From contig NZ_JARUBF010000001.1 of assembly GCF_029626025.1 (NCBI RefSeq), positions 2,418,001 through 2,482,000 on the forward strand: 64,000 bases of DNA, given 5' to 3'. Below the pieces are notes generated by a model, which was not told the DNA's origin, ran no database searches, and saw only the letters and a list, made by a program, of their open reading frames with translations. This DNA is from Solwaraspora sp. WMMD406 (GTDB lineage Bacteria; Actinomycetota; Actinomycetes; Mycobacteriales; Micromonosporaceae). This document shows positions 26,382 through 55,357 of this stretch, one piece after another. The stretch's first letter is position 1, and every line of letters begins with the position of its first letter. A program made the position numbers and the translations under genes.

Positions 26382-26428
26382 GCGAGACGGCGTCTCTGTT
26401 GACGGTCGAGGCGGTGCTGGCTTAGGCT
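26382..26428 (+). promoter_or_regulatory. operator A (IclR-type palindrome) and promoter
   Basis: GCGAGACGGCGTCTCT (26382-26397) contains the perfect inner palindrome AGACG-GC-GTCT-type core. It is the most symmetric of six related sites (also at 36641, 37783, 40688, 53916 and 55308). Two bases further is a sigma-70-like -35 TTGACG (26399-26404), then 18 bp, then TAGGCT (26423-26428). The operator directly upstream of the -35 fits an activator or a dual regulator. Confidence 0.65.
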
Positions 26429-26461
26429 GGCGGTACGACCACATAGCCGCAGGAGAACGCC

Positions 26462-26587
26462 ATGATCCGAGTTCCGCAAGGCTCTGGATTGCTGGTGCGC
26501 GGTTACGAGGAGCCGCTGCGGGTCCACCCGCCGCGCGAGGGCATGCGCCCCGGGACCGCTGCCGGGGACCCGCAGACCCCGTTCTGA
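26462..26587 (+). CDS. 41-residue peptide, first gene after operator A
   Basis: The ATG has AGGAG six bases upstream and lies about 33 bp after a recognisable promoter, so translation is likely. The product begins MIRVPQGSGLLVRGYEEPLR and ends GTAAGDPQTPF. It has no signal peptide, cysteine or membrane segment, and it is rich in Pro, Gly and Arg with a single Tyr. A TauD-type dioxygenase gene follows 165 bp downstream. It could be a leader peptide, a small regulatory protein, or the substrate of the oxygenase. I do not recognise its family. No second good ORF lies in the 165-bp spacer. Confidence 0.55.
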   Translation: MIRVPQGSGLLVRGYEEPLRVHPPREGMRPGTAAGDPQTPF

Positions 26588-26752
26588 TTTCCAGAGTCCC
26601 GCCGACCCGTCGCCCACCCGTCACGTGTGCGCCGCCGGTCCGGCGGGAAGCCACCCTGTCTGACACACCGGTACAGCGGACGCCACCCGCGTCGCACCGG
26701 GACACCGGCAACTCTCTTCCATCAGAATCGACGACCCTCGGAGCGCATCACC

Positions 26753-27823
26753 ATGACGACCGCAATCGACCTCGCCCCGATCTCCGGCCCGTCCGCCTGG
26801 CGCGGCGACGAGCTGGCCACCACCACCGAATGGATCTACCAGCTCAGTGACGCCGAGCGGACCGAGTTGGAGACCGTCGGCCGGCAGTTCGTCGCCGACG
26901 ACCCCGACCTGCGTACGGTCACCGCCGCCGACTACCCGCTGCCGGTCTGCGCCGGCCTCAACGCCGAGTGCGCGCAGCAGATGGACTCCGGGCGCGGCTT
27001 CATCCTGGTGCGCGGGCTGCGCACCGAGGAGTACGGCGACACCCTCGCCGGTGCCATCTTCTTCCTGATGGGCCTGCACCTCGGCGTACCGATGGCGCAG
27101 AACCAGATGGGCGACGTCCTCGACCACGTCATCGCCACCTCCAACAAGACCCTCGACGACCCGTCGGCGCTGCCGTCGCGGGTCCGGGACCGGCTGCCGT
27201 TCCACTCCGACAGCTCCGACGTGGTCGCGCTGATGTGCCTGCGCGCGGCGAAGGATGGCGGGGCGAGCAGCCTGGTCAGCGGCACCACCATCTACAACGA
27301 GATCCTGCGCCGCCGGCCGGACCTGGCGCCGCTGCTGTTCGAGCCGTGGCATTGGGACTGGTACAAGCAGGACCACGACGCCCCGGCGAACACCTACCTG
27401 TCGCCGATTTGCAGCTACGTCGACGGCATCTTCAGCACGTACGCCGGCAGCTCGATGATCTTCTCGGCGCAGGACTACCCGGAGGTGCCCCGGCTCACCG
27501 AGGCACAGATCGAGTTGCTGCACCTCTACGACGAGATCGCCCAAGAGCCGGGCCTGGCCCTGGACATGGACTTCCAGCCCGGCGACGTGCAGTGGCTGCT
27601 GAACTACGCCGCCCTGCACTCGCGGACCGGCTACGTCGACTTCCCGGAGCCGGAGCGCCGCCGCCACCTGTTGCGGCTGTGGCTCAAGCGCGACGTCGGC
27701 CGGCCGCTGGTGGACGGCTTCGGCAAGAACGTCGTCACCGACCGGGGCGCGGCCGACGTGGTGCCGGGCGGTCGGTTCCAGATCGCCGAGGCGGTCGTGC
27801 CGAACTTCGAGTGGGGCAACTGA
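26753..27823 (+). CDS. TauD/TfdA-family Fe(II)/2-oxoglutarate dioxygenase
   Basis: A 356-residue oxygenase. The facial triad is visible as PFHSDSSD (H151 and D153) and the distal H289 in NYAALHSRTGYVDFPEPERRR, whose nearby arginine would bind 2-oxoglutarate. The length and the segment RGFILVRGLR match the TauD superfamily, including a branch with many uncharacterised catabolic members. The ATG has GGAG nine bases upstream. It shares operator A with the peptide gene and so probably belongs to the same regulon as the P450 locus. Hydroxylation leading to dealkylation or desulfonation of a small organic compound is the usual chemistry. The substrate is unknown. Confidence 0.88.
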   Translation: MTTAIDLAPISGPSAWRGDELATTTEWIYQLSDAERTELETVGRQFVADDPDLRTVTAADYPLPVCAGLNAECAQQMDSGRGFILVRGLRTEEYGDTLAGAIFFLMGLHLGVPMAQNQMGDVLDHVIATSNKTLDDPSALPSRVRDRLPFHSDSSDVVALMCLRAAKDGGASSLVSGTTIYNEILRRRPDLAPLLFEPWHWDWYKQDHDAPANTYLSPICSYVDGIFSTYAGSSMIFSAQDYPEVPRLTEAQIELLHLYDEIAQEPGLALDMDFQPGDVQWLLNYAALHSRTGYVDFPEPERRRHLLRLWLKRDVGRPLVDGFGKNVVTDRGAADVVPGGRFQIAEAVVPNFEWGN

Positions 27824-27841
27824 CCACTTCCGATACGTGGA

Positions 27842-27879
27842 CGGTCCGCCGCGCTCCAAAGTCGTAGCGCGGCGGACCG
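27842..27879 (+). terminator. 14-bp perfect hairpin after the TauD gene
   Basis: CGGTCCGCCGCGCT (27842-27855) pairs exactly with 27866-27879 across a 10-nt loop, 19 bases after the TauD stop. It is a strong, U-poor terminator candidate. The 210 bases that follow (27880-28090) contain no convincing gene. Confidence 0.75.
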
Positions 27880-28090
27880 CCCGCATTTCTGCAACCCTGC
27901 CATCCGCTCTACGGGCCATGAAATTTGAGTGGCGTGAACGGGCTGGAGTGCGGTTACGCGCCAATGGGGACGATCTATCCGTCGCTTGTGCCTTGCGGTC
28001 TGCCAGCCGTCCGTTCGGTGCCGGTGGCTTTGCTCCGGCCAAGCTGGGCGGCCACGACTGCGCCTGCATGGGCTGCGCAAGTAACCCAAA

Positions 28091-28540: not shown

Positions 28541-28551
28541 GCTGGCCGAGG

Positions 28552-29590: not shown

Positions 29591-29708
29591 CTCCCCGGAA
29601 GAGCATCCCGGCTGGTCGCGAGGGCGGCGGCGCGTTCGTCGAGCCGGCTCATCAGAAGAACGCGTGGGCGGCGAACTCGGCGTGGGTGGCCGCCGCAGGT
29701 CCTGGCGG

Positions 29709-30262: not shown

Positions 30263-30275
30263 GGTGTTGTTCCTA

Positions 30276-34326: not shown

Positions 34327-36549
34327 TCAGAGGTCGAGCACCAAGCGGTCGGAGCCGCACCGGCCGACGCAGATCATCATGCTGCGGCCGGCGGCCCGTT
34401 CGTCGGCGGTGAGCAGCGAGTCGCGGTGCTCCGGCGTGCCAGCGAGCACCCGGGTCTCGCAGGCGCCGCAGTAGCCCTTCTCACAGTCGTAGGTCAGGCC
34501 GGGCACCGCCTCGCGCAGCACCTCGATCATCCGCTTGTCCTTCGGCACCCGCAGGGTGACCCCGGTGCGGGCCAGGTGCACGTCGAACTCGGTGTTGGCG
34601 GCCGGGTCGAACGGCACCTCCAGGTCGTCGCCGGCGGCGAAGCGTTCCACGTGCAGTTGCCCACCACGGCCGGCCTCGGCGCACACTCGCTCCACCGCGT
34701 CGATCATCGCGCCGGGTCCGCAGCAGTAGACGGCGGTGCCGTCGCCGGTGCCGTCGATCAGCGCGGCCAGGTCGGGCAGTCCGGCCTCGTCCTGCGGCAG
34801 CAGGACGGCCCGGTCGCCGGCCAGGGCGACCAGTTCGTCGGTGAAGGCCATCGAGGCCCGGCTGCGGCCCCCGTATACGACGCGGAACGGTGTGCCGCGT
34901 CGGACGGCTTCGCGGATCATGGCCAGGATCGGGGTGATCCCGATGCCGCCGGCCAGGAAGAGGTACGCGGGGGCGTCGACCAGTGGGAAGTGGTTGCGTG
35001 GGCCCCGTACGGTCAGCGTCGCGCCGGTGGCGGCGACGGTGTGCAGCTCGACGGATCCGCCCCGGCCGGCGGCTTCCCGCAGCACGCCGATCCGGTAGTG
35101 GCCGGTGTCGTCCGGGTCGCCGCAGAGCGAGTACTGCCGCACCCGGCCGGACGGTAGCCGTACCTCCAAATGGGCGCCGGGTGCCCAGGTCGGTAGCGGG
35201 GCACCGTCGGCGGCGGCCAGCCGTACCTCCCGCACCTGCTCGGCGACGGCGGTGACCGCCTCGACGACCAACTCCCGGTCGCCACCCGGGCGGCTCGCCA
35301 CCGGGGTACCCCCGGTCGCCGCGTCGGCGGCGCGGCGACCGGGGGTGAACACGGCCGGGATCGCGTCCCAGCCGGTCTGGTTTCCCTTGGTGGGGTAGCC
35401 GACGAGGCCGTCTTCGACGACCTGGTAGTCGGGCAGTCGGGTCAGCACCTGGGTGATCATCTCGCGGAACATCAGCCGGGCCAGGTGCGCGCCGGCGCAG
35501 CGGTGGCTGCCGATGCCGAAGCTGAGGTGGCGGGTGGCGTCGCGGTCCAGCCGGACCTGTTCGGGCTCGGGGAAGACCGCCGGGTCGTGGTTGGCGGCGA
35601 CCCAGGGGATCAGCACCCGTTCGCCGGCGCTGACCGGGCAGCCGCCGACCTCGGCGTCGGTACGGGCCGTGCGGGCCATCGACTGCGACGGTGCGAAGAC
35701 CCGCAGGAACTCCTCGGTGGCGCTGTCGAGCAGGTCGGGGGAGTCGATGAGGCGCTGCCGCTGCTCCGGGTTGCGGCTCAGGTGCACCAGGGTCGACCCG
35801 GTCAGCGACGTGGTGGTGTCCACGCCACCGGCGACCAGCAGGCCGATCACCGAGACGAGCTCGTCGACGCTGAAGGGTTCGCCGTCTGGGCGGCGTTGGG
35901 CGACAAGGTAGCTGACCGCGTCGTCGGCGGGCTCGGCCCGCCGGTCCCGGATCAGGTCCCGAATCCGTTCGTCCAGGTACGCCAGGCCCTGCGCGCCACG
36001 GACGGCGCGGTCGCTGCCGGGCAGCGCGGCGAAGATGTCGTGGATCGGCTTGGCCAGCTTGGCCCAGTCGGATTCGGGGAAGCCGAGCCAGTCGAGGGTG
36101 ACGGCGGCTGGCAGCGGGTTGGTCAGGTCGCGGACGAAGTCGACGGAGCCTTCGGTGATGAAGGCGTCGATGACTCGGGTGGTGTGTCGGGCGATCATCG
36201 GCGCGAGTGTCGCCACCGCGTCCTGGGTGAGCAGCGGGTTGATCAGGTCGCGGTAGCCGCTGGCGGCCGGCGGGTCTAGCTCGATCGGGTACTGCTCCAG
36301 GCCGGGTCCGCGCGGGATGACGATGGCGGTGCCGTCGCCGCCGGCGGTGGCGCGGGCGGAGGAGAAGGTGTCGTCGTCGCGGGCGACGCGGACCACGTCG
36401 GTGTAGCGGGTGGTGTAGACGAATCCGCCGTGTGCGGCGGTTCGCCCGACCGGGCATTTTTCCCGGTACGTCCGGTAGTAGCCGACCGGGTCGGCGTTAC
36501 ACGCGGCGGAGTGGTGGTCGAACTCCGTCATCTGGTCGAAGTCAGTCAT
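34327..36549 (-). CDS. self-sufficient cytochrome P450 (heme-FMN reductase-2Fe2S fusion)
   Basis: A 740-residue three-module monooxygenase of the CYP116B/P450RhF layout. The heme domain (1-400) has I-helix AGGVDTT (240-246), ExxR in EEFLRVF (about 280) and the cysteine loop FGIGSHRCAGAH (C351). After a linker (402-425) comes a phthalate-dioxygenase-reductase-like FMN/NAD module with RQYSLCG (471-477) and LAGGIGITPILAM. A plant-type ferredoxin follows, with CEKGYCGAC and the late CVGRC. All electron carriers are thus in one chain using NAD(P)H. Operator B lies about 90 bp upstream. The neighbours on the other side are an alcohol and an aldehyde dehydrogenase. This suggests stepwise oxidation of a hydroxylated methyl or alkyl group (inference). 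Confidence 0.93.
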   Translation of the reverse strand: MTDFDQMTEFDHHSAACNADPVGYYRTYREKCPVGRTAAHGGFVYTTRYTDVVRVARDDDTFSSARATAGGDGTAIVIPRGPGLEQYPIELDPPAASGYRDLINPLLTQDAVATLAPMIARHTTRVIDAFITEGSVDFVRDLTNPLPAAVTLDWLGFPESDWAKLAKPIHDIFAALPGSDRAVRGAQGLAYLDERIRDLIRDRRAEPADDAVSYLVAQRRPDGEPFSVDELVSVIGLLVAGGVDTTTSLTGSTLVHLSRNPEQRQRLIDSPDLLDSATEEFLRVFAPSQSMARTARTDAEVGGCPVSAGERVLIPWVAANHDPAVFPEPEQVRLDRDATRHLSFGIGSHRCAGAHLARLMFREMITQVLTRLPDYQVVEDGLVGYPTKGNQTGWDAIPAVFTPGRRAADAATGGTPVASRPGGDRELVVEAVTAVAEQVREVRLAAADGAPLPTWAPGAHLEVRLPSGRVRQYSLCGDPDDTGHYRIGVLREAAGRGGSVELHTVAATGATLTVRGPRNHFPLVDAPAYLFLAGGIGITPILAMIREAVRRGTPFRVVYGGRSRASMAFTDELVALAGDRAVLLPQDEAGLPDLAALIDGTGDGTAVYCCGPGAMIDAVERVCAEAGRGGQLHVERFAAGDDLEVPFDPAANTEFDVHLARTGVTLRVPKDKRMIEVLREAVPGLTYDCEKGYCGACETRVLAGTPEHRDSLLTADERAAGRSMMICVGRCGSDRLVLDL

Positions 36550-36620: not shown

Positions 36621-36656
36621 AGGGTAATCCCGTTCACATTACGAGACAACGTTTCG
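36621..36656 (-). promoter_or_regulatory. operator B and P450 promoter
   Basis: ACGAGACAACGTTTCG (36641-36656) matches the six-site operator pattern. On the minus strand TTGTCT inside it could be a -35, with TACCCT (36626-36621) after 17 bp as a -10, about 70 bases before the P450 ATG. The P450 and dehydrogenase genes are both on the minus strand here, so this site sits between the dehydrogenase stop and the P450 start. Confidence 0.6.
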
Positions 36657-36675: not shown

Positions 36676-37758
36676 TCAGAAGGTGAGGACGGCTTTGCCG
36701 ACCGTACCGCTGCGGACCGCCGCCACCGCGTCGTTGATCTGCCCGAACGGGTAGTGGCTGAGCAGTTTGTCGACCGGGAACCGCCCGGCGGTGTGCAGGT
36801 CGAGCAGCTTCGGCAGGAACACCTGCGGCAGGCTGGCGCCACCGATGATGCCGGTGACGGTGCGCCCGTTGAGGATGCTGCGCCAGTCGAAGCTCATCTG
36901 CTCGCTGGGGCCGACGCCGACGACCCCGCACCGGCCCAGCGGACCGAGCGCCTCGACCGCGGTCCGCGCCACCTCCTCGCGCCCGGTGGCGTCGATGGCG
37001 AGGTCGAAGCCGTCCGGGGCGATCGCGGCGAGCCGTTCCGTGGTGTCGCCGTCGCGCGAGTCGACGCCGTGGGTGGCGCCGAGCAGCCGGGCGGTGTCCA
37101 GCTTGTCGGCGTTGACGTCCACGGCGGCGATCGTGGAGCAGCCGGCGACCCGGGCGGCGAGGATCGCCGCGACGCCGACCGCGCCCGCGCCGAACACCAC
37201 GATCGACGACCCGACCGTCGGGCGCAGCACGTTGAGCACCGCGCCCGCGCCGGTGCCGAACCCGCAGCCGAACGGACCCACCACCCGCAGGTCGATCTCC
37301 TTGCTGATCGGCACCACGGCGCGAGCCGGGGCGACGACGTGGCTGGCGAACGACGACTGGCCGAGGAAGTGGCCGTTGACCGGTTGACCGTCGCGCGACA
37401 GCGCGCTGCTGCCGTCGGGTCGGCGGCCGGTGAAGTTGACCGCGTCGAAGCTGCGGCAGTAGGCCGGGCTGCCGGTCAGGCAGAGCGAGCAGGTGCCGCA
37501 GGAGGTGAAGCTCATCGCCACGTGATCGCCGACCGAGATGCCGGCGACCCGGTCGCCGACCTGTTCGACTACTCCGCTGCCCTCATGGCCGAGGACGGCC
37601 GGGGTGGGGAAGAAGGTGGCGAACTCCAGGTCGGTGCCGCAGATGCCGACGCTGTGCACGCGGACCAGCACCTCGTCCGGGCCGGGCTCGGCCAGGTCGA
37701 TCTCCTGCAGGGTGAACGGCCCACCCGCGTTGTCCAGAACCGCTGCCGTGACCCGCAC
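36676..37758 (-). CDS. zinc-dependent alcohol dehydrogenase (MDR family)
   Basis: A 360-residue medium-chain dehydrogenase. The catalytic zinc ligands are in SVGICGTDLE (Cys) and LGHEGSGVV (His, Glu), the structural zinc site is SCGTCSLCLTGSPAYC, and the Rossmann glycine motif is FGAGAVGVAAILAA. The mix GPFGCGFGTGAGAVLNVLRP resembles the aryl-alcohol (benzyl alcohol) dehydrogenase branch. The GTG at 37758 is chosen because GGGGAGGG lies just upstream. The gene is divergent from the aldehyde dehydrogenase with operator C between them, and 126 bp upstream of the P450 gene on the same strand. It would oxidise an alcohol made by the P450, with the aldehyde passing to the dehydrogenase at 37832. 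Confidence 0.92.
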   Translation of the reverse strand: MRVTAAVLDNAGGPFTLQEIDLAEPGPDEVLVRVHSVGICGTDLEFATFFPTPAVLGHEGSGVVEQVGDRVAGISVGDHVAMSFTSCGTCSLCLTGSPAYCRSFDAVNFTGRRPDGSSALSRDGQPVNGHFLGQSSFASHVVAPARAVVPISKEIDLRVVGPFGCGFGTGAGAVLNVLRPTVGSSIVVFGAGAVGVAAILAARVAGCSTIAAVDVNADKLDTARLLGATHGVDSRDGDTTERLAAIAPDGFDLAIDATGREEVARTAVEALGPLGRCGVVGVGPSEQMSFDWRSILNGRTVTGIIGGASLPQVFLPKLLDLHTAGRFPVDKLLSHYPFGQINDAVAAVRSGTVGKAVLTF

Positions 37759-37782
37759 ACACCCTCCCCGGTAACTCACAAA

Positions 37783-37826
37783 GCGAGACTGCATCTTGAC
37801 ATGCGGAACATGAAGGGTCAAGGATT
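37783..37826 (+). promoter_or_regulatory. operator C in the divergent dehydrogenase gap
   Basis: GCGAGACTGCATCTTG (37783-37798) overlaps the -35 TTGACA (37796-37801) of a rightward promoter. A weak -10 (AGGATT, 37821) is close to the aldehyde dehydrogenase ATG. The site can control both the alcohol dehydrogenase (left) and aldehyde dehydrogenase (right). It belongs to the six-member operator set. Confidence 0.6.
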
Positions 37827-37831: not shown

Positions 37832-39301
37832 ATGGCTGACCTGCGCGTTCCCGCTGCCCGCCAGCTGATCGACGGTGCCTGGGAGGCCGCCGCCGACAAC
37901 GGCGAACTACCTGTCCTGGACCCGGCGACCCGCCAGGTCATCCAACCGGTGGCCCGCGCCCGGGCCGCCGACGTCGACCGGGCCGTGGCCGCCGCCCGCC
38001 GGGCCGCCCCCGCCTGGGCCGCCACCTCGCCGAGCGAACGGGGCGCGACGCTGCGCCGGTGGGCCGACCTGATCGCCGCGCACGTCGAGGACCTCGCCGC
38101 GTACGAGGCCCGTGACGTGGGCAAACCCCGCTCCGGCGGCCGGCTCAACATCTACATCGCGCACGGCATCGTCGACTACTTCGCCGGTGCCGCCGACAAG
38201 CTCACCGGCGTCACGCTGCCCACCCGTACCCCGGACTACTTCGGTTACACCCGGCCGGAGCCGTACGGGGTCTGCGCGGTGGTGATCCCGTGGAACGTGC
38301 CGGCCGTACTGACCGCCGCGAACGTCGCGCCGGCGTTGGCCGCCGGCAACACGGTGGTGCTCAAGCCGTCGGAGATCGCGCCGCTGGCCCCGTTCGCCCT
38401 GTCTGAGCTGGGCCTGCGGGCCGGCCTGCCGCCGGGGGTGCTCAATGTCGTCACCGGGCTCGGCCCGGAGGCCGGGGTGGCGCTCACCGGCCACCCGGAC
38501 GTCGATCACATCAGCTTCGTTGGCTCCACGGTCACCGGCCGCGCGGTGATGCGGGCCGCCGCCGAGCACCTGGTCCCGGTCAAACTCGAACTCGGCGGCA
38601 AGTCGCCGAACGTCGTCTTCGCCGACGCCGACCTGGACGCGGCGATCCCGGCGATCGTCGCCTCGATCACCGAGAACGCCGGCCAGAACTGCTACGCCGG
38701 GTCCCGGCTGGTCGTCGAGGAGTCGATCCGCGCCGAGGTGGTCGAGCGGGTCGCCGCCGCGATGGCCGAGATCCGGGTCGGCTCCTGGGACCAGGATCTC
38801 GACATGGGTCCGCTGGTCAGCCAGGCTCAGTACGAGCGGGTCCGGGGCTTCCTGGCCGAGGCGCCGGCCGCCGGGGCGCGGCTGGTCACCGGCGGGGAGC
38901 CGGCCACCACCAGGTTGGGCGACGGCTGGTACGTCGCCCCGACGGTCTTCGACGACGTCGATCCGGGTGCGCGGCTGGCCCGCGAGGAGATCTTCGGACC
39001 GGTGCTGGCCATCCAGGGTTTCCGGGGCACCGACGAGGCGGTGGCGATCATGAACGACACCGACTTCGGCCTGCTGACCTGCGTCTGGACCTCGGACGTC
39101 TCCCGGGCGCTGCGCCTGGCCGGTCAGGCCCGCAGCGGGCAGGTGGCGGTCAACCAGTTCCACGACGCGGGGGTGATCGGCTTCCCGTTCAACATGCAGA
39201 AGGAGAGCGGGTTCAGTCGGGGCGGCGGCTACGCGGCGCTGCGCGAGTACACCCAGGAGAAGGCCGTCGCGGTCCGGCTGCTCGATCGACCGCCGACGTG
39301 A
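37832..39301 (+). CDS. aldehyde dehydrogenase, betaine-aldehyde-dehydrogenase-like
   Basis: A 489-residue NAD-dependent dehydrogenase. The catalytic Glu is in LELGGKSPN (E253) and the nucleophile in ENAGQNCYAGSR (C287). VIPWNVPAVL and REEIFGPVL are standard. The protein is distinct in sequence from the family member at 2492. The ATG has a weak AAGGAT upstream. The stop overlaps the GTG of the PucR-type regulator. It is divergent from the alcohol dehydrogenase and shares operator C, consistent with a consecutive alcohol-aldehyde-acid oxidation after P450 attack. Confidence 0.93.
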   Translation: MADLRVPAARQLIDGAWEAAADNGELPVLDPATRQVIQPVARARAADVDRAVAAARRAAPAWAATSPSERGATLRRWADLIAAHVEDLAAYEARDVGKPRSGGRLNIYIAHGIVDYFAGAADKLTGVTLPTRTPDYFGYTRPEPYGVCAVVIPWNVPAVLTAANVAPALAAGNTVVLKPSEIAPLAPFALSELGLRAGLPPGVLNVVTGLGPEAGVALTGHPDVDHISFVGSTVTGRAVMRAAAEHLVPVKLELGGKSPNVVFADADLDAAIPAIVASITENAGQNCYAGSRLVVEESIRAEVVERVAAAMAEIRVGSWDQDLDMGPLVSQAQYERVRGFLAEAPAAGARLVTGGEPATTRLGDGWYVAPTVFDDVDPGARLAREEIFGPVLAIQGFRGTDEAVAIMNDTDFGLLTCVWTSDVSRALRLAGQARSGQVAVNQFHDAGVIGFPFNMQKESGFSRGGGYAALREYTQEKAVAVRLLDRPPT

Positions 39302-40592: not shown

Positions 40593-40674
40593 CAGGCACG
40601 TTACGTCGCTGAGCCAGTTTCGGTCGAGGCGTTGACAGGTCGCCGGCCCGCAGGCAAAGTACGTCGCTAAGCAA
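40593..40674 (+). promoter_or_regulatory. two 24-bp direct repeats and a -35 in the importer operon promoter
   Basis: CAGGCACGTTACGTCGCTGA (40593) and CAGGCAAAGTACGTCGCTAA (40651) start two 24-bp units matching at 19 positions, 58 bp apart. A TTGACA (40632-40637) lies between them. The spacing of almost 5.5 helical turns and their position suggest a second regulator, possibly the adjacent PucR-type protein, acting on the operon that starts at 40725. Confidence 0.5.
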
Positions 40675-40687: not shown

Positions 40688-40703
40688 GCAAGACGCCATA
40701 TCG
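40688..40703 (+). promoter_or_regulatory. operator D
   Basis: GCAAGACGCCATATCG matches the six-site operator pattern. It lies between the direct repeats and the ribosome site of the gene at 40725, downstream of the TTGACA at 40632. That position fits repression more than activation. Confidence 0.55.
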
Positions 40704-43240: not shown

Positions 43241-43251
43241 GAGGAACCGCA

Positions 43252-44331
43252 GTGACAATACGGATCGGAAAAGGCGCGGCGGCGTTGCTCGCCGGCGCCG
43301 TCAGCCTCGCCCTGGTCGGTTGCGCCGACAACGACGCGACCGCGCCGAGCCCCTCCGGCAGCGAAAGCGGCGGCACCGTCATCGCCGGTCAGCCCGACGT
43401 CAACGGCGACGGCAAGGTGCTGATCGGGGTGCTCAGCCCCGGCGACATCAACGACAACGGCTACTACGAGAGCTTCGTCGCCGAGGCCGAACGCTTCGCC
43501 ACCGAAGAGGGCTGGGAGGTCATCAAGCGCGGCTCGGTGCCGCCCACCGAAGCGCTCAGCGCCGCCCGCGCGCTGTGCCAGCAGGGCGTCGACATGGTCG
43601 CCCTGGGTGCCTCCGAGCTCAAGGACGCCATCCCGGCCTCCGAGGAGCCGGCCTGCGAGAACGTCGCCTGGTACGTGCCGTCGTCGGAGAACATCCCGCA
43701 GACACCGAAGATCGTCATCTCCAGCGACGACCCCAACCAGAGCATGCTCGCCGCCGGCTACGCCACCGGCCTGCTGATGCAGGAAAACGGTGACACCAAG
43801 GCCGGGTTCGTCACCGGCATGGAGGTCGACTTCGCGATCAACGCCGCCCGCGCCTTCCAGGCCGGCATCCGGATGGTCGTGCCCGAGGCCGACCTGGTGA
43901 TCACCTACACCGGTGACTTCAACGACTCGGCGAAGGCCCGGGAAGCCGTGCAGGCGCAGATCGACCAAGGCGTCAGCGTGGTCTACCCGTACCTCGGTGG
44001 TGCCACCGACGCCGCTGCCGCGCTGGCTAACGAGAACGGGGCGCTGACGCTGACCCCGGGCACCGACCGGTGCGAGTCGACCGAGCCGGAGTTCGACATC
44101 TCCGTCATCTTCGACCCGGGCGCCTACTTCGCCGCCGCGCTGACCCTGTTCGCCGACGGTGAGCTGGAGATGGGCACCACCAAGGTGTGGCAGATCGGCG
44201 TCGACCCGTACCCGGCGATCAAGATCTGCGACCCGACGCCGGAGCAGACCGAGAAGATGGACGCGTTCGTCGCCGACGTGGCGGGTGGCACCATCGACAC
44301 CGCCGCCGAGGTGGAGCGACTGGGCAACTGA
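43252..44331 (+). CDS. BMP-family (PnrA-like) substrate-binding lipoprotein
   Basis: A 359-residue lipoprotein: a short basic start, the hydrophobic stretch LLAGAVSLALVGC with the lipobox cysteine, then the Bmp domain (VLIGVLSPGDINDNGYYESF, AGFVTGMEVDFAINA, VSVVYPYLGGATDAA). BMP proteins bind purine nucleosides or related compounds, riboflavin or autoinducer-like ligands for ABC import. The GTG at 43252 has GAGAGG six bases upstream and is preferred to the GTG at 43237. The ATPase and two permeases follow, so this is a complete importer for a nucleoside-like nutrient. Confidence 0.92.
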   Translation: MTIRIGKGAAALLAGAVSLALVGCADNDATAPSPSGSESGGTVIAGQPDVNGDGKVLIGVLSPGDINDNGYYESFVAEAERFATEEGWEVIKRGSVPPTEALSAARALCQQGVDMVALGASELKDAIPASEEPACENVAWYVPSSENIPQTPKIVISSDDPNQSMLAAGYATGLLMQENGDTKAGFVTGMEVDFAINAARAFQAGIRMVVPEADLVITYTGDFNDSAKAREAVQAQIDQGVSVVYPYLGGATDAAAALANENGALTLTPGTDRCESTEPEFDISVIFDPGAYFAAALTLFADGELEMGTTKVWQIGVDPYPAIKICDPTPEQTEKMDAFVADVAGGTIDTAAEVERLGN

Positions 44332-44425
44332 CGCCCGACCGTCCGACGTACGCCCTCCTGCCACCCCGCCGCGATCCCGCTGCCAGAGCCGACAACCCAG
44401 AGCCGACAACGAGGTGAAACGGACT

Positions 44426-46066
44426 GTGCACACCGACGGCCAAAAGGCGCCGGCGCTCACCCTGCGCGGAGTGAGCAAGCGCTACGGTCCGGTCGTCGCC
44501 TGCGACGCCGTGGATCTCACCGTACGACCCGGTGAGATCCACGGCCTCCTCGGCGAGAACGGGGCCGGCAAGTCGACGTTGATGAAGATCCTGCTCGGGC
44601 TGGTGCACCGCGACGGCGGCACGATCGAGCGGGACGGCCGACCGGTGGAGATCGACACCCCGCAGGCGGCGGCCGACCTCGGGCTGGGCATGGTGCACCA
44701 GCACTTCAGCCTGATCGAGCCGCTCAGCGTCTGGGAGAACGTCATCCTGGGAGACACCGGCCGGGTCGACAAGGCGGCGGCCTGCGCCCAGGTCGAGACC
44801 GTCGCCCAGCGGTACGGCCTGCCGATCGATCCGCTGACCCGGGTGGACCGGCTCTCCGCCGGTGAACGGCAACGAGTCGAACTGATCAAGTGCCTGCGTC
44901 GGGATCCGTCGGTGCTGATCCTCGACGAGCCGACCTCGGTGCTCACCCAGGCCGAGTCGGCCGAGTTGTTCACCGTGCTGCGCCGGGTGGTGCAGGCGGA
45001 GAACCGGGCGGTCATTCTGATCAGCCACAAACTGGCCGAGATCGTCGCGGCCACCGACCGGGTGACCGTGCTGCGTCGCGGCGCGGTCGTCTTCCACGGT
45101 GCCACCGCCGACACCACCCCGCAGTCGCTGGCCCGGCAGATGGTCGGCCGGGAGGTGTCGCTGCGGGCCGAGAGCGCCGCGCTGGGCCTGCTGCCGGTCG
45201 AGCGGACGTCCGACGAGTCCGCAACGCCCGCCGAGCCCGCCACATCCGACGCGGCGGCGGACCGGCCGGCGACCGTACCACCGGACCAGCCGGCGGCGGA
45301 CGGTTCCGCGTCGCCCGCGACCCCACCGGCCCTGCGGCTGCGCGACGTCACCGTTCTCCTCGGTGACCTGCCGATCCTCGACACCCTGAACCTCGACGTG
45401 GCAGCCGGCGAGATCGTCGGACTGTACGGCGTCGAAGGCAACGGCCAAGCTACCCTCGGTGACCTGCTTTCCGGCCTGGTCGTCCCCGACTCGGGCGGCG
45501 TCGAACTCGCCGGCGCACCGGTCGATCTGGCCGCGCCGGGCGCGCTGCACCTCGCCGGCCTGGGCATCGTGCCCGAGGACCGACACCGATCCGGGGTGGT
45601 GCTCGACATGACGATCGCGGAGAACCTGGCGATGAAGTCGCTGGCGGCCGTCTCCGGCTCCGGCGGGCTGCTCAACCGGCGCAGGATGCACCAGATCGCC
45701 CGGCAGCGGATGGCCGAGTTCAACATCGTCGCGCCGTCGCCGGACACCCCGGTGCGCAGCCTCTCCGGCGGCAACCAGCAGCGGGTCGTCCTGGCCCGGG
45801 AGCTGTCCGCCGGACCGAAGGTGCTGGTCGCCGCCCAACCGACGCACGGCCTGGACGTCGGCGCCATCGAAGACATGTACGTGCGGCTACGTGCCGCCGC
45901 GGCGGAAGGAGTGGCGGTGCTGCTGATCTCCACCGAACTGGAGGAGGTGATGGCCCTGGCCGACCGGATCGCGGTGATCTCCTCCGGCCGCATCGTCGGG
46001 GTGCTCACCACCGAGCAGGCCACCGCCGAGCGTCTCGGCATGCTGGTCGGCGGGGTGAGTCACTGA
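44426..46066 (+). CDS. BMP-type ABC importer ATPase (two NBDs)
   Basis: A 546-residue double ATPase of the NupA/YufO kind. The first domain is complete: GENGAGKSTLMKIL, LSAGERQRVELI, VLILDEPTSVLT. The second has the degenerate Walker A GVEGNGQATLGDLL usual in this family, and LSGGNQQRVVLAREL. Between them is an Ala/Pro/Asp-rich linker (about residues 255-300), longer than in homologues. The GTG at 44426 is preferred because AGGTGA lies eight bases upstream; a GTG at 44414 is also in frame. The stop overlaps the first permease start. Confidence 0.9.
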   Translation: MHTDGQKAPALTLRGVSKRYGPVVACDAVDLTVRPGEIHGLLGENGAGKSTLMKILLGLVHRDGGTIERDGRPVEIDTPQAAADLGLGMVHQHFSLIEPLSVWENVILGDTGRVDKAAACAQVETVAQRYGLPIDPLTRVDRLSAGERQRVELIKCLRRDPSVLILDEPTSVLTQAESAELFTVLRRVVQAENRAVILISHKLAEIVAATDRVTVLRRGAVVFHGATADTTPQSLARQMVGREVSLRAESAALGLLPVERTSDESATPAEPATSDAAADRPATVPPDQPAADGSASPATPPALRLRDVTVLLGDLPILDTLNLDVAAGEIVGLYGVEGNGQATLGDLLSGLVVPDSGGVELAGAPVDLAAPGALHLAGLGIVPEDRHRSGVVLDMTIAENLAMKSLAAVSGSGGLLNRRRMHQIARQRMAEFNIVAPSPDTPVRSLSGGNQQRVVLARELSAGPKVLVAAQPTHGLDVGAIEDMYVRLRAAAAEGVAVLLISTELEEVMALADRIAVISSGRIVGVLTTEQATAERLGMLVGGVSH

Positions 46067-47367
46067 TGGCCGTGACGACCGGAGGCGACGCCGCCGGCCG
46101 GCGGCTGCTCGCCCGGCTCAACCCCGGCGTCGGCGGCTGGCAGGTCGCCGCCGCGACAGTGGTCACCGTGGCCGCCGCGCTCGGCCTGTCCGCGCTGCTG
46201 ATCGCCGTCACCGGCGGTTCCCCGTCCGCCTCGGTCCAGGCGCTCTACCAGGGCAGCGTGTCGAGCCCGGCGGCCTGGAGCAACTCCCTGCTGTACGTCG
46301 CGCCACTGCTGCTGGTCGCGGTCGGTGCCTGCGTCAGCGCCCGGTCCGGCTTTTTCAACATCGGCCAGGAAGGGCAGGTGCTGATCGGCGCGCTGGCCGG
46401 TGCCTGGGTCGGTCTGCGGCTCGCGCTGCCCGGCCCGCTGCTGCTGGTCGTGGTGCTGCTCGCCGCGTTGCTCGCCGCCGGCGGCTGGGCCGGGCTGAGC
46501 GCGCTGATGTACCGCTTCCGGGGCGTCAACGTCGTCGTCAGTACGCTGCTGATGACCTTCCTGGCCCAGCAACTCGTGGCTTTCGCCGTCAACACCCCGT
46601 GGCTGCTGCAGGAGTCCCGGTTGGGCAGCGGCGTCGTCTCGCCGCAGTCCAACCCGCTACCGGAAAACGGCCGGCTCGCCTCCCTCGGCGACTACCCGAA
46701 CCTGCAGGTCAACGGTGGCCTGATCCTGGCGATCCTGGTCGCGGTCGCGCTCAGCCTGGCGATGACCCGTACCCGATGGGGGTTCCGGCTGAAGATGCTC
46801 GGCCTCAACCCGGTCACCGCCCAGCACGCCGGCGTACGGGTCGGTGCGCTCGGCGGCATGGCGTTGGCCATCTCCGGCGCGTTCGCCGGGCTCGCCGGCG
46901 CGCTGCTACTGACCAGCCCGGTCGGCAGCCACCGCCTGCAGCCCGGCATGTCGCTCAACATCGGCTGGGACGGCCTGCTCGTCGCGCTGGTCGCCCGGAA
47001 CAATCCGCTGCTGGCCATCCCGGTCGCGGTCCTGTTCGGGGTGCTGCGGGCCGGCGGAAGCTTCCTCGCCGCCACCGGCGTCCCGTCGTTCCTGGTCGAC
47101 GTGGTCAAGGCGCTGCTTGTCCTGGCCTTCGTCGCACCGCCGGTGGTGATCGGCATGCTGCGGCGGCGTCGGGCCGGCGGGCAGTCGGCCGGCACCCCGC
47201 CGCCCGCCGCCGGCCTGCCTGTCCCGACCACGCCGTCCGACGACCCGGCCGCGCCGGGCCGCGACGTACCGGCGATCGACGTACCGCCGGCCGACCGATC
47301 CCACGACGGGGCTCGCCGTGGCACCAGCGGCAACGAGGAGAACGCCATGGAAGGGAAGCCGGCATGA
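46066..47367 (+). CDS. BMP-type ABC importer permease (YufP-like)
   Basis: A 433-residue inner-membrane permease of the BPD_transp_2 family. FFNIGQEGQVLIGAL and NVVVSTLLMTFLAQQL are family hallmarks, with about nine hydrophobic helices. The C-terminus carries an unusual tail of about 70 residues rich in Pro, Ala and Asp (QSAGTPPPAAGLPVPTTPSD region) that is absent from typical homologues. The ATG shares a base with the ATPase stop, and its own stop overlaps the next ATG. Confidence 0.9.
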   Translation: MAVTTGGDAAGRRLLARLNPGVGGWQVAAATVVTVAAALGLSALLIAVTGGSPSASVQALYQGSVSSPAAWSNSLLYVAPLLLVAVGACVSARSGFFNIGQEGQVLIGALAGAWVGLRLALPGPLLLVVVLLAALLAAGGWAGLSALMYRFRGVNVVVSTLLMTFLAQQLVAFAVNTPWLLQESRLGSGVVSPQSNPLPENGRLASLGDYPNLQVNGGLILAILVAVALSLAMTRTRWGFRLKMLGLNPVTAQHAGVRVGALGGMALAISGAFAGLAGALLLTSPVGSHRLQPGMSLNIGWDGLLVALVARNNPLLAIPVAVLFGVLRAGGSFLAATGVPSFLVDVVKALLVLAFVAPPVVIGMLRRRRAGGQSAGTPPPAAGLPVPTTPSDDPAAPGRDVPAIDVPPADRSHDGARRGTSGNEENAMEGKPA

Positions 47368-48278
47368 GCGCCGCCGACAACATCGCCACCATCCTGTCCA
47401 GCGGCGCGCGGTTGACCATCCCGCTGGCCTTCGCCGCCTGCGGCGAGTACGTCGCCCAACGGGCCGGCACCCTCAACATCTCGGTCGAGGCGATGATGCT
47501 CGGCGCCGCGTTCGGATCGATCGCGGTGGCCAGCGCCACCGGCAGCGCCACGATCGGGTTGGCCGCCGGTGCCCTGGTCGGGGTGGTGATCGCCGTGGTG
47601 CACGCCAACCTGTCGCACCGGGCGCAGATCAACACCTTCGTCGTCGGCTTGGTGCTCAACGCGCTCGTCCTGGGTCTGACCAGCTATCTGATCACGGTCA
47701 GCACCTTCACCGGCCACCAGGTGTGGCGGGTGGACATCCCGGTGCTGCGCGACATCCCGGTCATCGGGCCGGTGCTGTTCGTCCAGCGCTGGCCGGCGTA
47801 CCTGCTGCTGATCGCTATCCCGCTCACCTGGTGGTTGGTGGAACGCAGCCGGTGGGGTCTGGAACTGCGGGCGGTGGGGGAGAACCCGCAGGCCGCCGAC
47901 GTCAGCGGCATCAAGGTCAACCACCGGCGGCGGCAGGCGCTGCTGTTCTGCGGGCTGCTCGCCGGCCTCGGCGGCGCCTACCTCGCGGTCGGTGAGGTCG
48001 GCTCGTTCAACCAGAACATGACCGCCGGCCGCGGCTACCTGGTGATCGCGGCGGTGATGTTCGGTGCCTGGCGACTGGGCCGGACGATGATCGGCTGTGC
48101 CGTCTTCGGCCTGGCCGACGCGATGCGGCTGGCGCTGCCGGCCCTGGGCGTGACCATCAACTCGCAACTGCTGATCGCGGCGCCGTACCTGCTGGCCTTG
48201 CTCGCCATGCTGGTCTTCGCCACCCAGCACCGAGAGCCCAGAGCCCTGGCCCAACCGTTCCAACGCGGCACCACCTGA
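47364..48278 (+). CDS. BMP-type ABC importer permease (YufQ-like)
   Basis: A 304-residue BPD_transp_2 permease. The opening ARLTIPLAFAACGEYVAQRA and GTLNISVEAMMLGAAF, and the cytosolic loop RSRWGLELRAVGENPQAADV, are the usual family features. There are about eight membrane segments. The ATG overlaps the preceding stop. It is the last gene of the operon that starts at 40725, 15 bp before the convergent YetF-like gene. Confidence 0.9.
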   Translation: MSAADNIATILSSGARLTIPLAFAACGEYVAQRAGTLNISVEAMMLGAAFGSIAVASATGSATIGLAAGALVGVVIAVVHANLSHRAQINTFVVGLVLNALVLGLTSYLITVSTFTGHQVWRVDIPVLRDIPVIGPVLFVQRWPAYLLLIAIPLTWWLVERSRWGLELRAVGENPQAADVSGIKVNHRRRQALLFCGLLAGLGGAYLAVGEVGSFNQNMTAGRGYLVIAAVMFGAWRLGRTMIGCAVFGLADAMRLALPALGVTINSQLLIAAPYLLALLAMLVFATQHREPRALAQPFQRGTT

Positions 48279-50038: not shown

Positions 50039-50060
50039 CAGCGGTCCACGTCAGCGCCGC

Positions 50061-51102: not shown

Positions 51103-51299
51103 GACGACGACCTTCCCGATCCGGTGCCGACCACACCGGCACGGATGCCACGCTCGCACGCGGGGTACGTCGCCGGCACCGTACCGCCGGATCGAAGCAC
51201 GGTCGCCGGGTTTGTGTCCCCGGCACATGGCCGCCGGCTACCGTGCTGAATAGCCTGGTAGACGCGGTAGTACAGACTTTTCGGCAACTGGAGGTTCCT

Positions 51300-52144: not shown

Positions 52145-52174
52145 TCCCGGCCCGGGGGTGGGTAGAGTGGCGCC

Positions 52175-52954
52175 GTGGTGGTCACGGGGCGACCGGCGAG
52201 CGCGACCGACGAGGTGACCGGCGACGGGCCGGCCATCCAGACGGTGCAGCGCGCCGCGACGATCCTGCGGGCGTTCACCGTCGAGCGACCCCGGCTCACC
52301 CTGGCCGAGCTCACCGCTGATCTGGCCATCAGCCGGGCCACCGCGCACCGGTACGCGCGGGCGTTGCGGGCCGCCAACCTGTTGCGCTTCGACGTCGCTA
52401 CCGCCACCTACACTCTCGGCCCGCAGATCCTGGCGATGGAGGCGGCGGCCCGCGCCGCGCTGCCGATCGTCACCGCAGCCGAGCCTTATCTTGATCGGCT
52501 GACCCGGGCGACCAATCTGACGTCGGTGCTCAGCGTCTGGAACGGCGAGGCGCCGACGGTGGTCCGCTGCATGGACAACACCAGCGGCGACGTCCGGCTC
52601 AGCGTCCGTACCGGCTCGCCGTTGGACCTGACCCGGTCGGCGCAGGGCCGGGTCTTCTGCGCGTTCCTGCCGCCGGGGGAGAACCCGGTGGTGGCCCGGC
52701 AGTTGCGGTTGTCGGCCGCGCTGCGGGAGGTGGTCGCGCAGGTCCGCCGGGACGGCGTCGCGGTCAACTCGCCGGAGGATTTCGGGGTACGGGTGATCGC
52801 CGCCCCGGTGTTCGAACGGACCCAGGTGGTGGCCGCGCTCGCGGTGCTGGGCACCAGTGTGGCGTTGGGCGGCGCGGCGGAGACCGCCGCGGCGGACACG
52901 CTGCGGCGGTTGTCCGGTGAGCTGTCCGAGGCGCTCGGCGCGATCGCCGGTTAG
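52175..52954 (+). CDS. IclR-family regulator 1
   Basis: A 259-residue regulator. The N-terminal winged HTH begins IQTVQRAATILRAFTVERPR and continues LTLAELTADLAISRATAHRY. The C-terminal effector domain contains SAQGRVFCAFLPPGENP and VIAAPVFERTQVVAALAV. It is a clear paralogue of the IclR protein on the opposite strand at 52971. They are convergent, only 16 bp apart. The GTG at 52175 is used; a GTG at 52178 is equivalent. One of the two is the best candidate for binding the six-site operator. IclR proteins usually respond to aromatic or small organic acids. Confidence 0.9.
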   Translation: MVVTGRPASATDEVTGDGPAIQTVQRAATILRAFTVERPRLTLAELTADLAISRATAHRYARALRAANLLRFDVATATYTLGPQILAMEAAARAALPIVTAAEPYLDRLTRATNLTSVLSVWNGEAPTVVRCMDNTSGDVRLSVRTGSPLDLTRSAQGRVFCAFLPPGENPVVARQLRLSAALREVVAQVRRDGVAVNSPEDFGVRVIAAPVFERTQVVAALAVLGTSVALGGAAETAAADTLRRLSGELSEALGAIAG

Positions 52955-52970
52955 CTGGCGCGACATCCGG

Positions 52971-53831
52971 TCAGCGGCTGCCGTTGCCGTTGCCGCCCTG
53001 ACCCCGGCCGCTGCCCTGGCTCCGGCCGTTGCCGTTGCCGTCCGGACCGCCGGCGACGCTGCCCAGCTCGGCGGTGACCACGCCGGCGGTCCGTTGCAGG
53101 GCGGCGGCCAGCGGGCTGTCCGTACCCTCCGGCACCGACGTGGTGGTGCCGACGATCGCCATCGCGGCGATCAGCGTCTGGCCCCGGAAGATCGGCGCGG
53201 CGATGCTGCGGACCCCGTTGACCGACGGGGTGTTGGCGGAAATGCCGGTCCGCCGGATCTTGTCGACCTCGTGGCGCAGCTCGGCCGAGGCGGCCAGGTC
53301 GGCGGCGAGTCCGGGTACGTCGTCGGCCGGCAGGAAGGCGCAGAAGACCCGGCCCTGGGCGGATTCGGTGCGCGACAGCCGGGAGCCGGTGCGGACGCTG
53401 ACCCGGATCACCCGGTCGGTGTTGTCGTCGGCGCGGACCACCACCGCCGTGTCGCCGTCCCAGACGCTGAGCACCACGGTTTCGTCGACCTCGCGGACCA
53501 GCTGCTGCATGTGCGGCCCGGCGATGCTGATCACCGGCATCGCGGCGCGGGCGGCGGCGGACAGGGTGAGGATCTGCGGGCCGAGGGAGTAGAGGCCCTC
53601 TCGTTCGTCGTAGCGCAGCAGGTTGCTCTCCCGCAGCGCTTTGGTGTAGCGGTGCGCGGTGGCCTTGCTGGTGCCGAGGCTGGCTGTCAGCTCGTTGAGG
53701 CTCAGCCGGGGGCGGGCGGCGGTGAACGCGTTGAGGATCACCGCGGCGCGCTGCACGGTCTGGATCGCCGGCGTGCTCGGCTCGACCGCCGCCGAAGGGC
53801 TCGGCTCGACCGAGGGGCTGTCATCCGCCAT
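52971..53831 (-). CDS. IclR-family regulator 2, with Gly/Asn-rich tail
   Basis: A 286-residue paralogue of the convergent IclR gene. IQTVQRAAVILNAFTAARPR opens the HTH, and SAQGRVFCAFLPADDVPG and SIAAPIFRGQTLIAAMAI lie in the effector domain. The last 25 residues (PDGNGNGRSQGSGRGQGGNG and onward) are low complexity, from short CCGTTG-type DNA repeats, and are not part of the family. Operator E lies 85 bp before the ATG at 53831, suggesting autoregulation. The upstream neighbour on the same strand is the M20-like gene, 112 bp away. Confidence 0.9.
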   Translation of the reverse strand: MADDSPSVEPSPSAAVEPSTPAIQTVQRAAVILNAFTAARPRLSLNELTASLGTSKATAHRYTKALRESNLLRYDEREGLYSLGPQILTLSAAARAAMPVISIAGPHMQQLVREVDETVVLSVWDGDTAVVVRADDNTDRVIRVSVRTGSRLSRTESAQGRVFCAFLPADDVPGLAADLAASAELRHEVDKIRRTGISANTPSVNGVRSIAAPIFRGQTLIAAMAIVGTTTSVPEGTDSPLAAALQRTAGVVTAELGSVAGGPDGNGNGRSQGSGRGQGGNGNGSR

Positions 53832-53915
53832 CTGGCTTTCCTAACGGGAGGCGGGGCACGCACGGCGGGCGAAGCGTCGGGTGGAGCGTCGAGGATGCCG
53901 TAACGTGCGCGGAGA

Positions 53916-53931
53916 ATGAGACAGCATCATG
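53916..53931 (-). promoter_or_regulatory. operator E, upstream of IclR gene 2
   Basis: ATGAGACAGCATCATG fits the six-site operator pattern. It lies 13 bp downstream of the M20-like gene stop and about 85 bp upstream of the IclR gene 2 ATG on the same strand. No convincing -35/-10 pair was found. Confidence 0.55.
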
Positions 53932-53943
53932 GCATACGGTACC

Positions 53944-55275
53944 TTACGTTGTCGATGAGCCCGAGTGCCGTACCGCCACATCGGCGTAGAGGTCGGCGAA
54001 CCGGACCAGATCCGCGACGGCGTACCGGTCGAGCCGTGGGTCGTCCGGGTCCGGCCCGCGTGACGGCGGTCCCAGCCGTACCGTGGGCACCCCGCGACCG
54101 CGCAACACCACCCCGTCGGTCGACCCGGTCCAGCCGGTGACCGGGCGGGGCGGCTCGCCGTGGGCGGCCGTCCAGGCGGCGTACGCGTGTCGGGCGATCG
54201 GCGCGTCGGCGGCGGTGGCGGCGGCCGGGTGGACCAGCCGGCCGTCGACGGTCACCGGGCAGTCCCGCAGCGGCGTACCGGCCAGCGTCTCGTCGAGCAC
54301 CGCCCGAAGCCGGGCGCGGATCTCGCCTGGATCGTCACCGGGCACGGTCACCAGGTAGAGGTGCAGCTCCAGCCGGCCCGGGAGCAGATCCGGCTTGCCG
54401 GGCGAGCCGGCGGCCACCGCGCCGATGCCGACTTCGGCGCCGACCGGCGCCGCCGGGTCGGTCCGACGGTCTGCCAGATGCCGTCGCCGGAACTCTTCCA
54501 GCGCGGCGATCACGGTGCCGAGGTGGGCGATCAGACCCCCCGGCGGTACGGCGGACTCACGGGCCAGCGCCGGATGGAAGCTGCTGGTCAGCCGTACCCG
54601 CAGGAACATCGCCCCGGGTTCGGCGGTGAGCACGCCGGCCGGGCCGGTCTTGGCCACCACCGCGGCGGCCGGCGGCGGGTGCCGGTCCAGGTGGTGGGTC
54701 ACGCCGCTGGGGGTGAGGCCGGACGGGTGGTGCCGGTGGGTGCCGGCGGCGGCCAGCAGCAGGGTCAGCCGGTGGGGACGGCCGGTGGCGCGGAGTCGGT
54801 CGGCGGCGAGGGTGAAGCCGACGAGGGCCGACGCGGCGGCGGCCCGGGCAACGCCGAGGCCGAAGCCGGTGACCAGTGCGGCGTCGTCCGGGGCGGTGGC
54901 CTGGCGCAGACCGGCGAGTTCGGCCCGGGACCCGGTGACCGGCTCGTCGGCGTCGGGGTCGCCGGTGAGCGAGGTGTCGAGGTGGGAGTAGATCAGCAGT
55001 TCCGGCGCGTCACCGAGGTGTGCGGTGGCGAGCAGGTTCGCGGCGTTTGGGGCCTCGGCGGTGGCGGGTAGCGGATCGACCCGCCAGGTGGATCCGGGCC
55101 AGCGGTCCGCCGCCCAGGCGGCGACCCGCTCGGCGGTGGGCCGTTCCCGCCCGTACGGGGTCGGTCCGGCGGTCAGCACCGTCAGCGCGTCGACGATCCG
55201 CTCCGGCGCGGCGACGCTCCGGCGCGGCGCGATGGCGGTCCGCTCCGGCTCCGTGCTCGTCGAGTCCTCGCTCAT
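53944..55275 (-). CDS. M20-like metallopeptidase-family protein lacking most metal residues
   Basis: A 443-residue protein with the M20/carboxypeptidase-G2 outline: LLIYSHLDTSLTG carries the first H-x-D, followed by a lid-domain-like centre and a late GSTDGVVLRGRGVPTVRLGP block. The second metal segment (normally D-x-K-G) reads GFGLGVARAA, and the Glu-Glu catalytic pair (normally EEIG) reads AAAGTHRHH. The C-terminal histidine is also not obvious. It may bind one metal or be a non-catalytic homologue. The start at 55275 follows GATGAGG. An upstream ATG at 55326 would place operator F inside the coding region, so it is rejected. Confidence 0.75.
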   Translation of the reverse strand: MSEDSTSTEPERTAIAPRRSVAAPERIVDALTVLTAGPTPYGRERPTAERVAAWAADRWPGSTWRVDPLPATAEAPNAANLLATAHLGDAPELLIYSHLDTSLTGDPDADEPVTGSRAELAGLRQATAPDDAALVTGFGLGVARAAAASALVGFTLAADRLRATGRPHRLTLLLAAAGTHRHHPSGLTPSGVTHHLDRHPPPAAAVVAKTGPAGVLTAEPGAMFLRVRLTSSFHPALARESAVPPGGLIAHLGTVIAALEEFRRRHLADRRTDPAAPVGAEVGIGAVAAGSPGKPDLLPGRLELHLYLVTVPGDDPGEIRARLRAVLDETLAGTPLRDCPVTVDGRLVHPAAATAADAPIARHAYAAWTAAHGEPPRPVTGWTGSTDGVVLRGRGVPTVRLGPPSRGPDPDDPRLDRYAVADLVRFADLYADVAVRHSGSSTT

Positions 55276-55307
55276 CGCCTCATCCCACCAGTCTGGGTGA
55301 CAGTTAT

Positions 55308-55357
55308 ACAAGATGACATCTCGCATGTTGACATAGCCGGGGCATGGTCTCTAGCGT
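55308..55357 (+). promoter_or_regulatory. operator F and ferredoxin operon promoter
   Basis: ACAAGATGACATCTCG (55308-55323) belongs to the operator set. Five bases further lies TTGACA (55328-55333), then 18 bp, then TAGCGT (55352-55357), a good sigma-70-like promoter about 105 bp before the ferredoxin ATG. The same site lies 33 bp upstream of the divergent M20-like gene. The arrangement (operator directly upstream of the -35) equals that at operator A. Confidence 0.7.

Follow-up and report, generated by a model that had tools for sequence, protein, structure and literature searches.

A CRAGAYG-type palindrome shared by the promoters of a Solwaraspora catabolic cluster is a likely operator of an IclR-family regulator

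Introduction

Operators of IclR-family regulators have been divided into two motif groups, of which group 2 has the consensus TGRAACA-N1-2-TGTTYCA, and in many regulator groups tandem sites lie 18–22 nt apart (Suvorova and Gelfand 2021, PMC8222616). Examined here is a catabolic gene cluster of Solwaraspora sp. WMMD406, contained in a 64,000-nucleotide stretch of contig NZ_JARUBF010000001.1 (positions 2,418,001–2,482,000; referred to here as the window, in whose coordinates features are given). A reading made from the letters alone, referred to here as the sequence-only reading, had claimed that six palindromes of 16 bp tie the P450, dehydrogenase, importer, TauD and ferredoxin operons of this cluster into one regulon. 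All six are present letter for letter and share one motif, and the comparison of genomes supports the single regulon well. We propose, with a probability of about 0.7, that an IclR-family repressor which also controls its own gene acts through these sites and governs the whole pathway together; the protein IclR2, encoded at 52971–53831, is its most likely identity.

In arrangement the sites resemble the group 2 operators of that survey, with inverted 7-mers, a one-base centre, a purine-rich left half, positions near or over promoters and presumed autoregulation; in letters they differ, for where the group consensus has T at position 1 and A at position 4 of each half, they have C (0.88) and G (0.90). 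By the consensus from that survey of 181 regulator groups, the motif is a 'group-2-like' sequence variant and by its letters no member of the group. The Escherichia coli IclR (TGGAAATNATTTCCA) and KdgR (RWWGAAACGNCGTTTCAKKA) sites in Table 1 of the survey are odd-centred palindromes, as here, and the KdgR core GAAACGNCGTTTC resembles the CGAAACG half of site B, but their targets are different and the half-sites here mostly read GAGAC or AAGAT. The OhpR/OhpA locus of Cupriavidus pinatubonensis likewise pairs an IclR-type regulator with an uptake gene and a self-sufficient P450 of the CYP116B type; that locus is small and serves 2-hydroxyphenylacetate, in contrast to the seven-site regulon described here, and the word 'operator' is absent from the text of its description (PMC8449657). 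Systems of this kind, an IclR regulator with a group-2-like operator, are already known, the approach is ordinary regulon reconstruction and the surprise is moderate; a literature search pairing IclR with Micromonospora, Microtetraspora, Rieske/TauD or CYP116B, which did not extend to subscription journals, returned no description of this regulon.

The operator sites

The shared motif is an odd-centred 15-mer, CRAGAYG-N-CRTCTYG (CRAGAY-NNN-RTCTYG), whose symmetry axis is a base and not a gap. The sites are therefore related, as the sequence-only reading held, in a register other than its 16-bp palindrome with a two-base centre, each 15-mer starting one base inside the earlier 16-mer. As had also been claimed, all six are intergenic. 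Site A (CGAGACGGCGTCTCT, 26383–26397) precedes a 41-aa open reading frame (ORF) and the TauD gene, and site B (CGAGACAACGTTTCG, 36642–36656) overlaps the −35 box of the P450 gene. Located in the divergent gap between a zinc alcohol dehydrogenase gene (ADH1) and an aldehyde dehydrogenase gene (ALDH) is site C (CGAGACTGCATCTTG, 37784–37798), which contains the ADH1 −10 box. Site D (CAAGACGCCATATCG, 40689–40703) is 3′ of the promoter shared by a second alcohol dehydrogenase gene (ADH2) and the importer, site E (TGAGACAGCATCATG, 53917–53931) covers the −10 box of the IclR2 promoter, and site F (CAAGATGACATCTCG, 55309–55323) precedes the ferredoxin gene. A seventh site, with the perfect consensus, is found 649 bp beyond the window end (position 2482649 of genome contig C1; L137:2649), before a Rieske dioxygenase operon. 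Out of seven possible pairs, 6, 5, 4, 4, 2 and 6 are strictly self-complementary in sites A–F, respectively.

In a symmetrised, promoter-weighted matrix of 65 sites from seven promoters, positions 1–6 are C (0.88), G/A (0.96), A (0.91), G (0.90), A (0.99) and C/T (1.00), and an additional outer C stands seven bases further out (0.82). A separate matrix was built from loci outside the own-genus genomes (29 distinct 31-mers with 18 distinct cores); its training sites were chosen with the consensus and are independent in sequence, not in definition. This external matrix places the six sites at ranks 1–6 among all 15-mers of the window, with 23.7, 18.9, 17.2, 16.5, 15.9 and 10.5 bits, the seventh rank having 6.8. 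At these six cut-offs, 100 dinucleotide shuffles gave 0, 0.02, 0.07, 0.14, 0.17 and 1.16 expected matches per window, with a top shuffled score of 21.5.

Conservation of the sites

The closest genomes form a set of eight: the genome itself, six of its genus and genome G003. Many of the compared genomes are close relatives, and the promoter counts given below are not independent. Each of sites A–F stands at the same promoter in 8/8 close genomes, two mismatches being needed for B in three genomes and for E in all, whereas C and F match perfectly throughout; the seventh site, at the Rieske promoter, is also kept in 8/8. Site A is found additionally in G002 and Micromonospora echinofusca, and site D in G031. 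The variants of site A, CGAGACGGCGTCTCT, CGAGATGGCGTCTCT or CGAGATGGCATCTCT, and CGAGATGGTGTCTCG in G002, preserve its purine/pyrimidine symmetry.

In all five clusters of the more distant Microtetraspora, the P450, ADH1/ALDH, ferredoxin and IclR2 genes have a site in their promoters, and the FAA-hydrolase operon, where split off, has its own site CGAAACAAYATCTCG, again in 5/5. Outside Microtetraspora, the other distant genomes show fewer or weaker sites. Among 28 external loci with IclR2-like genes (492,014 bases), 25 have at least one site with at most one mismatch. Paired sites 20 nt apart occur in two distant loci (L090:12050/12070 and L111:2882/2902), which matches the tandem spacing in the IclR survey (PMC8222616), one partner being weak in each (12.8 and 14.8 bits). 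A degenerate partner lies 20 nt upstream of site E, reading CAAGATAAGGTACCG in G060 and G034, with a look-alike there in three close genomes; no second tandem site of 10 bits is present in the window.

Assignment to an IclR regulator

IclR2 (286 aa, against about 250 as typical of the family; reverse strand) comprises an N-terminal helix-turn-helix (PF09339, HTH_IclR; E = 1.1e-12, 47.9 bits against a cut-off of 22) and an effector domain (PF01614, IclR_C; E = 2.9e-20, 73 bits against a cut-off of 24), and is homologous to the solved structures of KdgR (5y6i, 1.3e-17) and TtgV (2xrn, 2.2e-11). A site is present in its own promoter in 8/8 close genomes, in the five Microtetraspora clusters and in Streptosporangium, and within 150 bp before the IclR2-matched stretch in 13 of the 28 external loci at one mismatch or fewer, including a Chloroflexi metagenome-assembled genome. 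Its paralogue IclR1 (52175–52954, forward strand; Pfam IclR_C and HTH_IclR) has a site in its promoter in only 1/8. Five Microtetraspora (L099, L100, L101, L103 and L106) contain an isolated second IclR2 copy with no other window gene near; preceding it is CAGGATGCTGTCTCG, in four of the five about 46–49 bp before the only in-frame ATG.

Relatives of the IclR proteins were detected in 10/10 more distant genomes: Microtetraspora (five), Streptosporangium, Rhizohabitans, Dactylosporangium, 'Rhodococcus' and Micromonospora sp. CPCC 205371. A regulator of the PucR family, encoded inside the cluster, had no match at E ≤ 1e-15 in any of these ten. IclR2 shares the recognition-helix stretch SKATAHRYTKAL with the only IclR protein of G002 and that of Dactylosporangium. 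In a tree of 32 proteins IclR1 and IclR2 each have a clade of their own, beside which stands a third group. For the 'Rhodococcus' record (L116, Rhodococcus sp. IEGM 1379 by title) the tree gives the label Cyanobacteriota, the sign of a mixed assembly or a mislabel.

Because IclR relatives are present in all ten distant genomes and PucR is detected in none, and given the site before IclR2, its rarity before IclR1 and the grouping in the tree, the assignment of the motif to an IclR subfamily rather than to PucR is well supported by comparison, and IclR2 is the most likely owner of the operators in this cluster, with IclR1 possibly sharing sites. The view of the sequence-only reading that an IclR-type protein owns the operator is borne out to that extent and narrowed to IclR2, whose binding is predicted.

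Promoter geometry and mode of action

Promoter-like hexamers stand at fixed distances from the sites. Distances of the −35/−10 boxes were counted from the site start, and transcription was assumed to begin 12 bases after the initial base of the −10 box. At site A, the forward-strand promoter of the TauD transcript (26399–26428) has TTGACG at 26399–26404 and TAGGCT at 26423–26428, at +16/+39 or +40 in 9/10 genomes. The reverse-strand P450 promoter at site B (TTGTCT, 36649–36644; TACCCT, 36626–36621) is at +7/+30 in 13/13, a count limited to the aligned GTTGTCT/ATTGTCT site. On the same strand at site C, ADH1 has the −10 box CAAGAT (37798–37793), at −23/0 in 13/13. The forward-strand −35 box of ADH2 and the importer (TTGACA, 40632–40637) is upstream of site D in 9/9 genomes, with −57/−34 in the eight close genomes and −60/−37 in G031 and in three of five weak Microtetraspora sites. 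IclR2 has its −10 box CATGAT at site E (53931–53926, reverse strand), at −24/0 or −23/0 in 14/20 cases and in 8/8 of the close set. On the forward strand at site F are the ferredoxin boxes TTGACA (55328–55333) and TAGCGT (55352–55357), at +19/+43 in 18/18, and at the Rieske promoter TTGACA precedes the seventh site by 36–37 bases in 8/8.

The TTGACA or TTGACG letters reported beside sites A, C and F are all there, with a conserved −10 partner for A and F and none on that strand for C. Site C as a TTGACA promoter of ALDH was accordingly rejected, a conserved −35/−10 pair for ALDH being found in 0/13 cases; the reverse-strand gene at 53944–55275 similarly has no conserved pair (0/18).

From the inferred starts, the site centres lie at about −44 (TauD), −35 (P450), −5 (ADH1), +30 (ADH2), −5 (IclR2), −48 (ferredoxin) and +9 (Rieske); in ADH1 and IclR2 a half-site, CAAGAT or CATGAT, doubles as the −10 box. 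Repression is favoured because the centres scatter over and behind the promoters, positions that would suit an autoregulated repressor better than an activator. An IclR2 dimer, or a pair of dimers, on CRAGAYG-N-CRTCTYG would block RNA polymerase at seven places, namely before the 41-aa ORF with TauD, the P450, ADH1/ALDH, the ADH2/importer operon, IclR2 itself, the ferredoxin/FAA-hydrolase operon and the Rieske operon. Some pathway compound would release IclR2, and the import and degradation of the substrate, probably aromatic or nitrogen-containing, could then begin at the same time.

Alternative readings

Site E (53917) is a weak palindrome, with 2/7 pairs self-complementary, and its score lies within the shuffled range and is not significant, yet the site is kept in 8/8 close genomes. 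Several observations weigh against an autoregulated IclR2 repressor. The geometry of the IclR2 promoter recurs in 0/5 Microtetraspora clusters, whose ADH2 promoters have weak versions of the site only, with three mismatches. Three of the 28 external loci (L092, L112 and L114) have no site at one mismatch or fewer, in L096 and L113 the sole such site is far from IclR2, and the Dactylosporangium sites are imperfect (best TGAGATGGCATCTCA). In the Chloroflexi genome, CGAGAGACCGTCTCG lies directly behind a candidate start codon of the IclR homologue, 48 bp before the matched stretch. The tree's third group holds the only IclR of G002, that of Dactylosporangium and further copies from Rhizohabitans, G031 and G077, none of them strict orthologues of IclR2. 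Sites A and F are just upstream of −35 boxes, a possible activator position. IclR1 accompanies IclR2 in the close clade and in both Microtetraspora and Streptosporangium, and it may itself bind the sites, alone or together with IclR2.

The last point leads to the strongest alternative, in which the operators are recognised by both IclR1 and IclR2, a two-input switch working through a heterodimer or by competition. The paralogues are 51% identical, are convergent neighbours in the close clade and have similar recognition helices (SRATAHRYARAL in IclR1, SKATAHRYTKAL in IclR2). These helix stretches nevertheless differ at three residues, motif-bearing G002 and Dactylosporangium each have a single IclR match, and the IclR1 promoter seldom has a site; we regard the switch as possible, on balance a minority prospect. 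More speculative still is a wider proposal, in which a widespread and undescribed IclR subfamily with CRAGAYG-type operators governs a regulon for the catabolism of one substrate in Actinomycetota, perhaps also in other phyla, the convergent paralogues forming a two-signal switch on the same operators and the conserved 41-aa protein being the first product from one of them.

IclR2 acting as an activator or dual regulator, recruiting polymerase from sites beside the −35 box, would explain why A and F abut conserved −35 boxes, and activators are among the IclR members described in PMC8222616. The remaining centres, at about −35, −5, −5, +9 and +30 from inferred starts, are poor activating positions, which makes activation unlikely and repression by IclR2 the preferred mode.

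Ownership by the PucR-family regulator (39298–40545, forward strand; Pfam HTH_30 and GGDEF_2) is highly improbable and largely refuted: the gene is inside the cluster and conserved in the close clade, but it is undetected in the ten distant genomes even though the same genes have sites in 5/5 Microtetraspora clusters, and nine further family genomes gave orthologues with the same query. A TetR regulator (25720) was also considered as owner and rejected, since in G034, G114 and G003, which retain site A, no TetR gene stands next to TauD.

Across the 7.16-Mb genome, the perfect consensus occurs at three places, site C, site F and the seventh site, all in or beside the cluster. With one mismatch allowed there are 83 places against 55 for a reversed control pattern; six of the 83 fall within 38 kb (about 0.4 expected). 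In the 28 external loci there are 36 perfect matches, whereas permuted half-sites give 0.58 on average (motif included), rank 1 of 360 permutations; with one mismatch the motif ranks only fifth of 360 (63 against up to 97), a weak test, and its five matches in the window are reached by 28 of the 360 permutations. Eighteen of 133 family genomes without an IclR2 match were scanned and gave 29 scattered perfect matches, none clustered as here. That the six sites resemble one another by chance in GC-rich promoter gaps is scarcely credible, since position-specific conservation and the matrix ranking refute it despite the frequent one-mismatch matches, the scattered perfect ones and the shuffled-range score of site E. 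As a separate observation, TAAGACCGCATCTCG occurs at C1:3211961 and 3212845, as an inverted pair separated by 884 bp, with another copy at C3:18366 on a small contig, perhaps marking the ends of an insertion element.

The 41-aa ORF behind site A

Site A would drive first the 41-aa ORF (26462–26587, forward strand) and then TauD (start 26753). The 41-aa protein is 97–100% identical in seven relatives, 79% in M. echinofusca (L098:1330) and 74% over 34 aa in G002 (L091:3444). Its ORF is an island of DNA identity (97%, against 68–75% just downstream and 74–84% just upstream) in which synonymous codon changes are at least as many as others in each of seven comparisons. It was found in 3/396 genomes of the phylum, its own included and one match being weak, and neither Pfam nor NCBIfam gave a match at E ≤ 1. 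A further distant match in G547 (E = 3.5e-4), with no window gene alongside in the 3 kb examined, is probably chance. An RNA-level cause of the conserved stretch was rejected: no Rfam family reached its gathering score in 24000–58000, the fold has a z-score of −1.35 and 6/100 shuffles fold equally well, and the stretch is read as coding.

Gene content and pathway

Downstream of the 41-aa ORF is a TauD/TfdA-type dioxygenase gene (26753–27823, forward; PF02668). The self-sufficient P450–reductase fusion (34327–36549, reverse) has Pfam P450, Fer2 and NAD-binding domains and near full-length PDB matches to 6kbh and 6laa. Adjoining it are ADH1 (36676–37764, reverse; Pfam and NCBIfam) and ALDH (37832–39301, forward; Pfam E = 1.3e-157), and beyond the PucR gene a presumed operon of ADH2, amidohydrolase and BMP-type ABC importer genes (40725–48278, forward; Pfam). 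A 443-aa protein (53944–55275, reverse) has relatives across the clade and no Pfam or NCBIfam match at the cut-offs used. Controlled from site F would be a presumed operon of ferredoxin, reductase, FAA hydrolase, amidohydrolase and HpcH aldolase genes (55462–59766, forward; Pfam).

Behind the seventh site are genes for the alpha and beta subunits of a Rieske dioxygenase and a Glyoxalase-family protein; in the PDB, the alpha subunit is best matched by biphenyl and naphthalene dioxygenase chains. An aromatic ring route is suggested because Rieske, Glyoxalase, FAA-hydrolase and HpcH genes occur together. With a defined operator, a loose set of oxygenases, dehydrogenases, an importer and ring-cleavage-type genes becomes one testable pathway, whose substrate can be sought through what releases IclR2. 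The link between operator and regulator, with IclR1 and IclR2 paired, also offers a natural case for recognition split between paralogues. Divergent from the Rieske genes at the seventh site is an acetamidase/formamidase gene.

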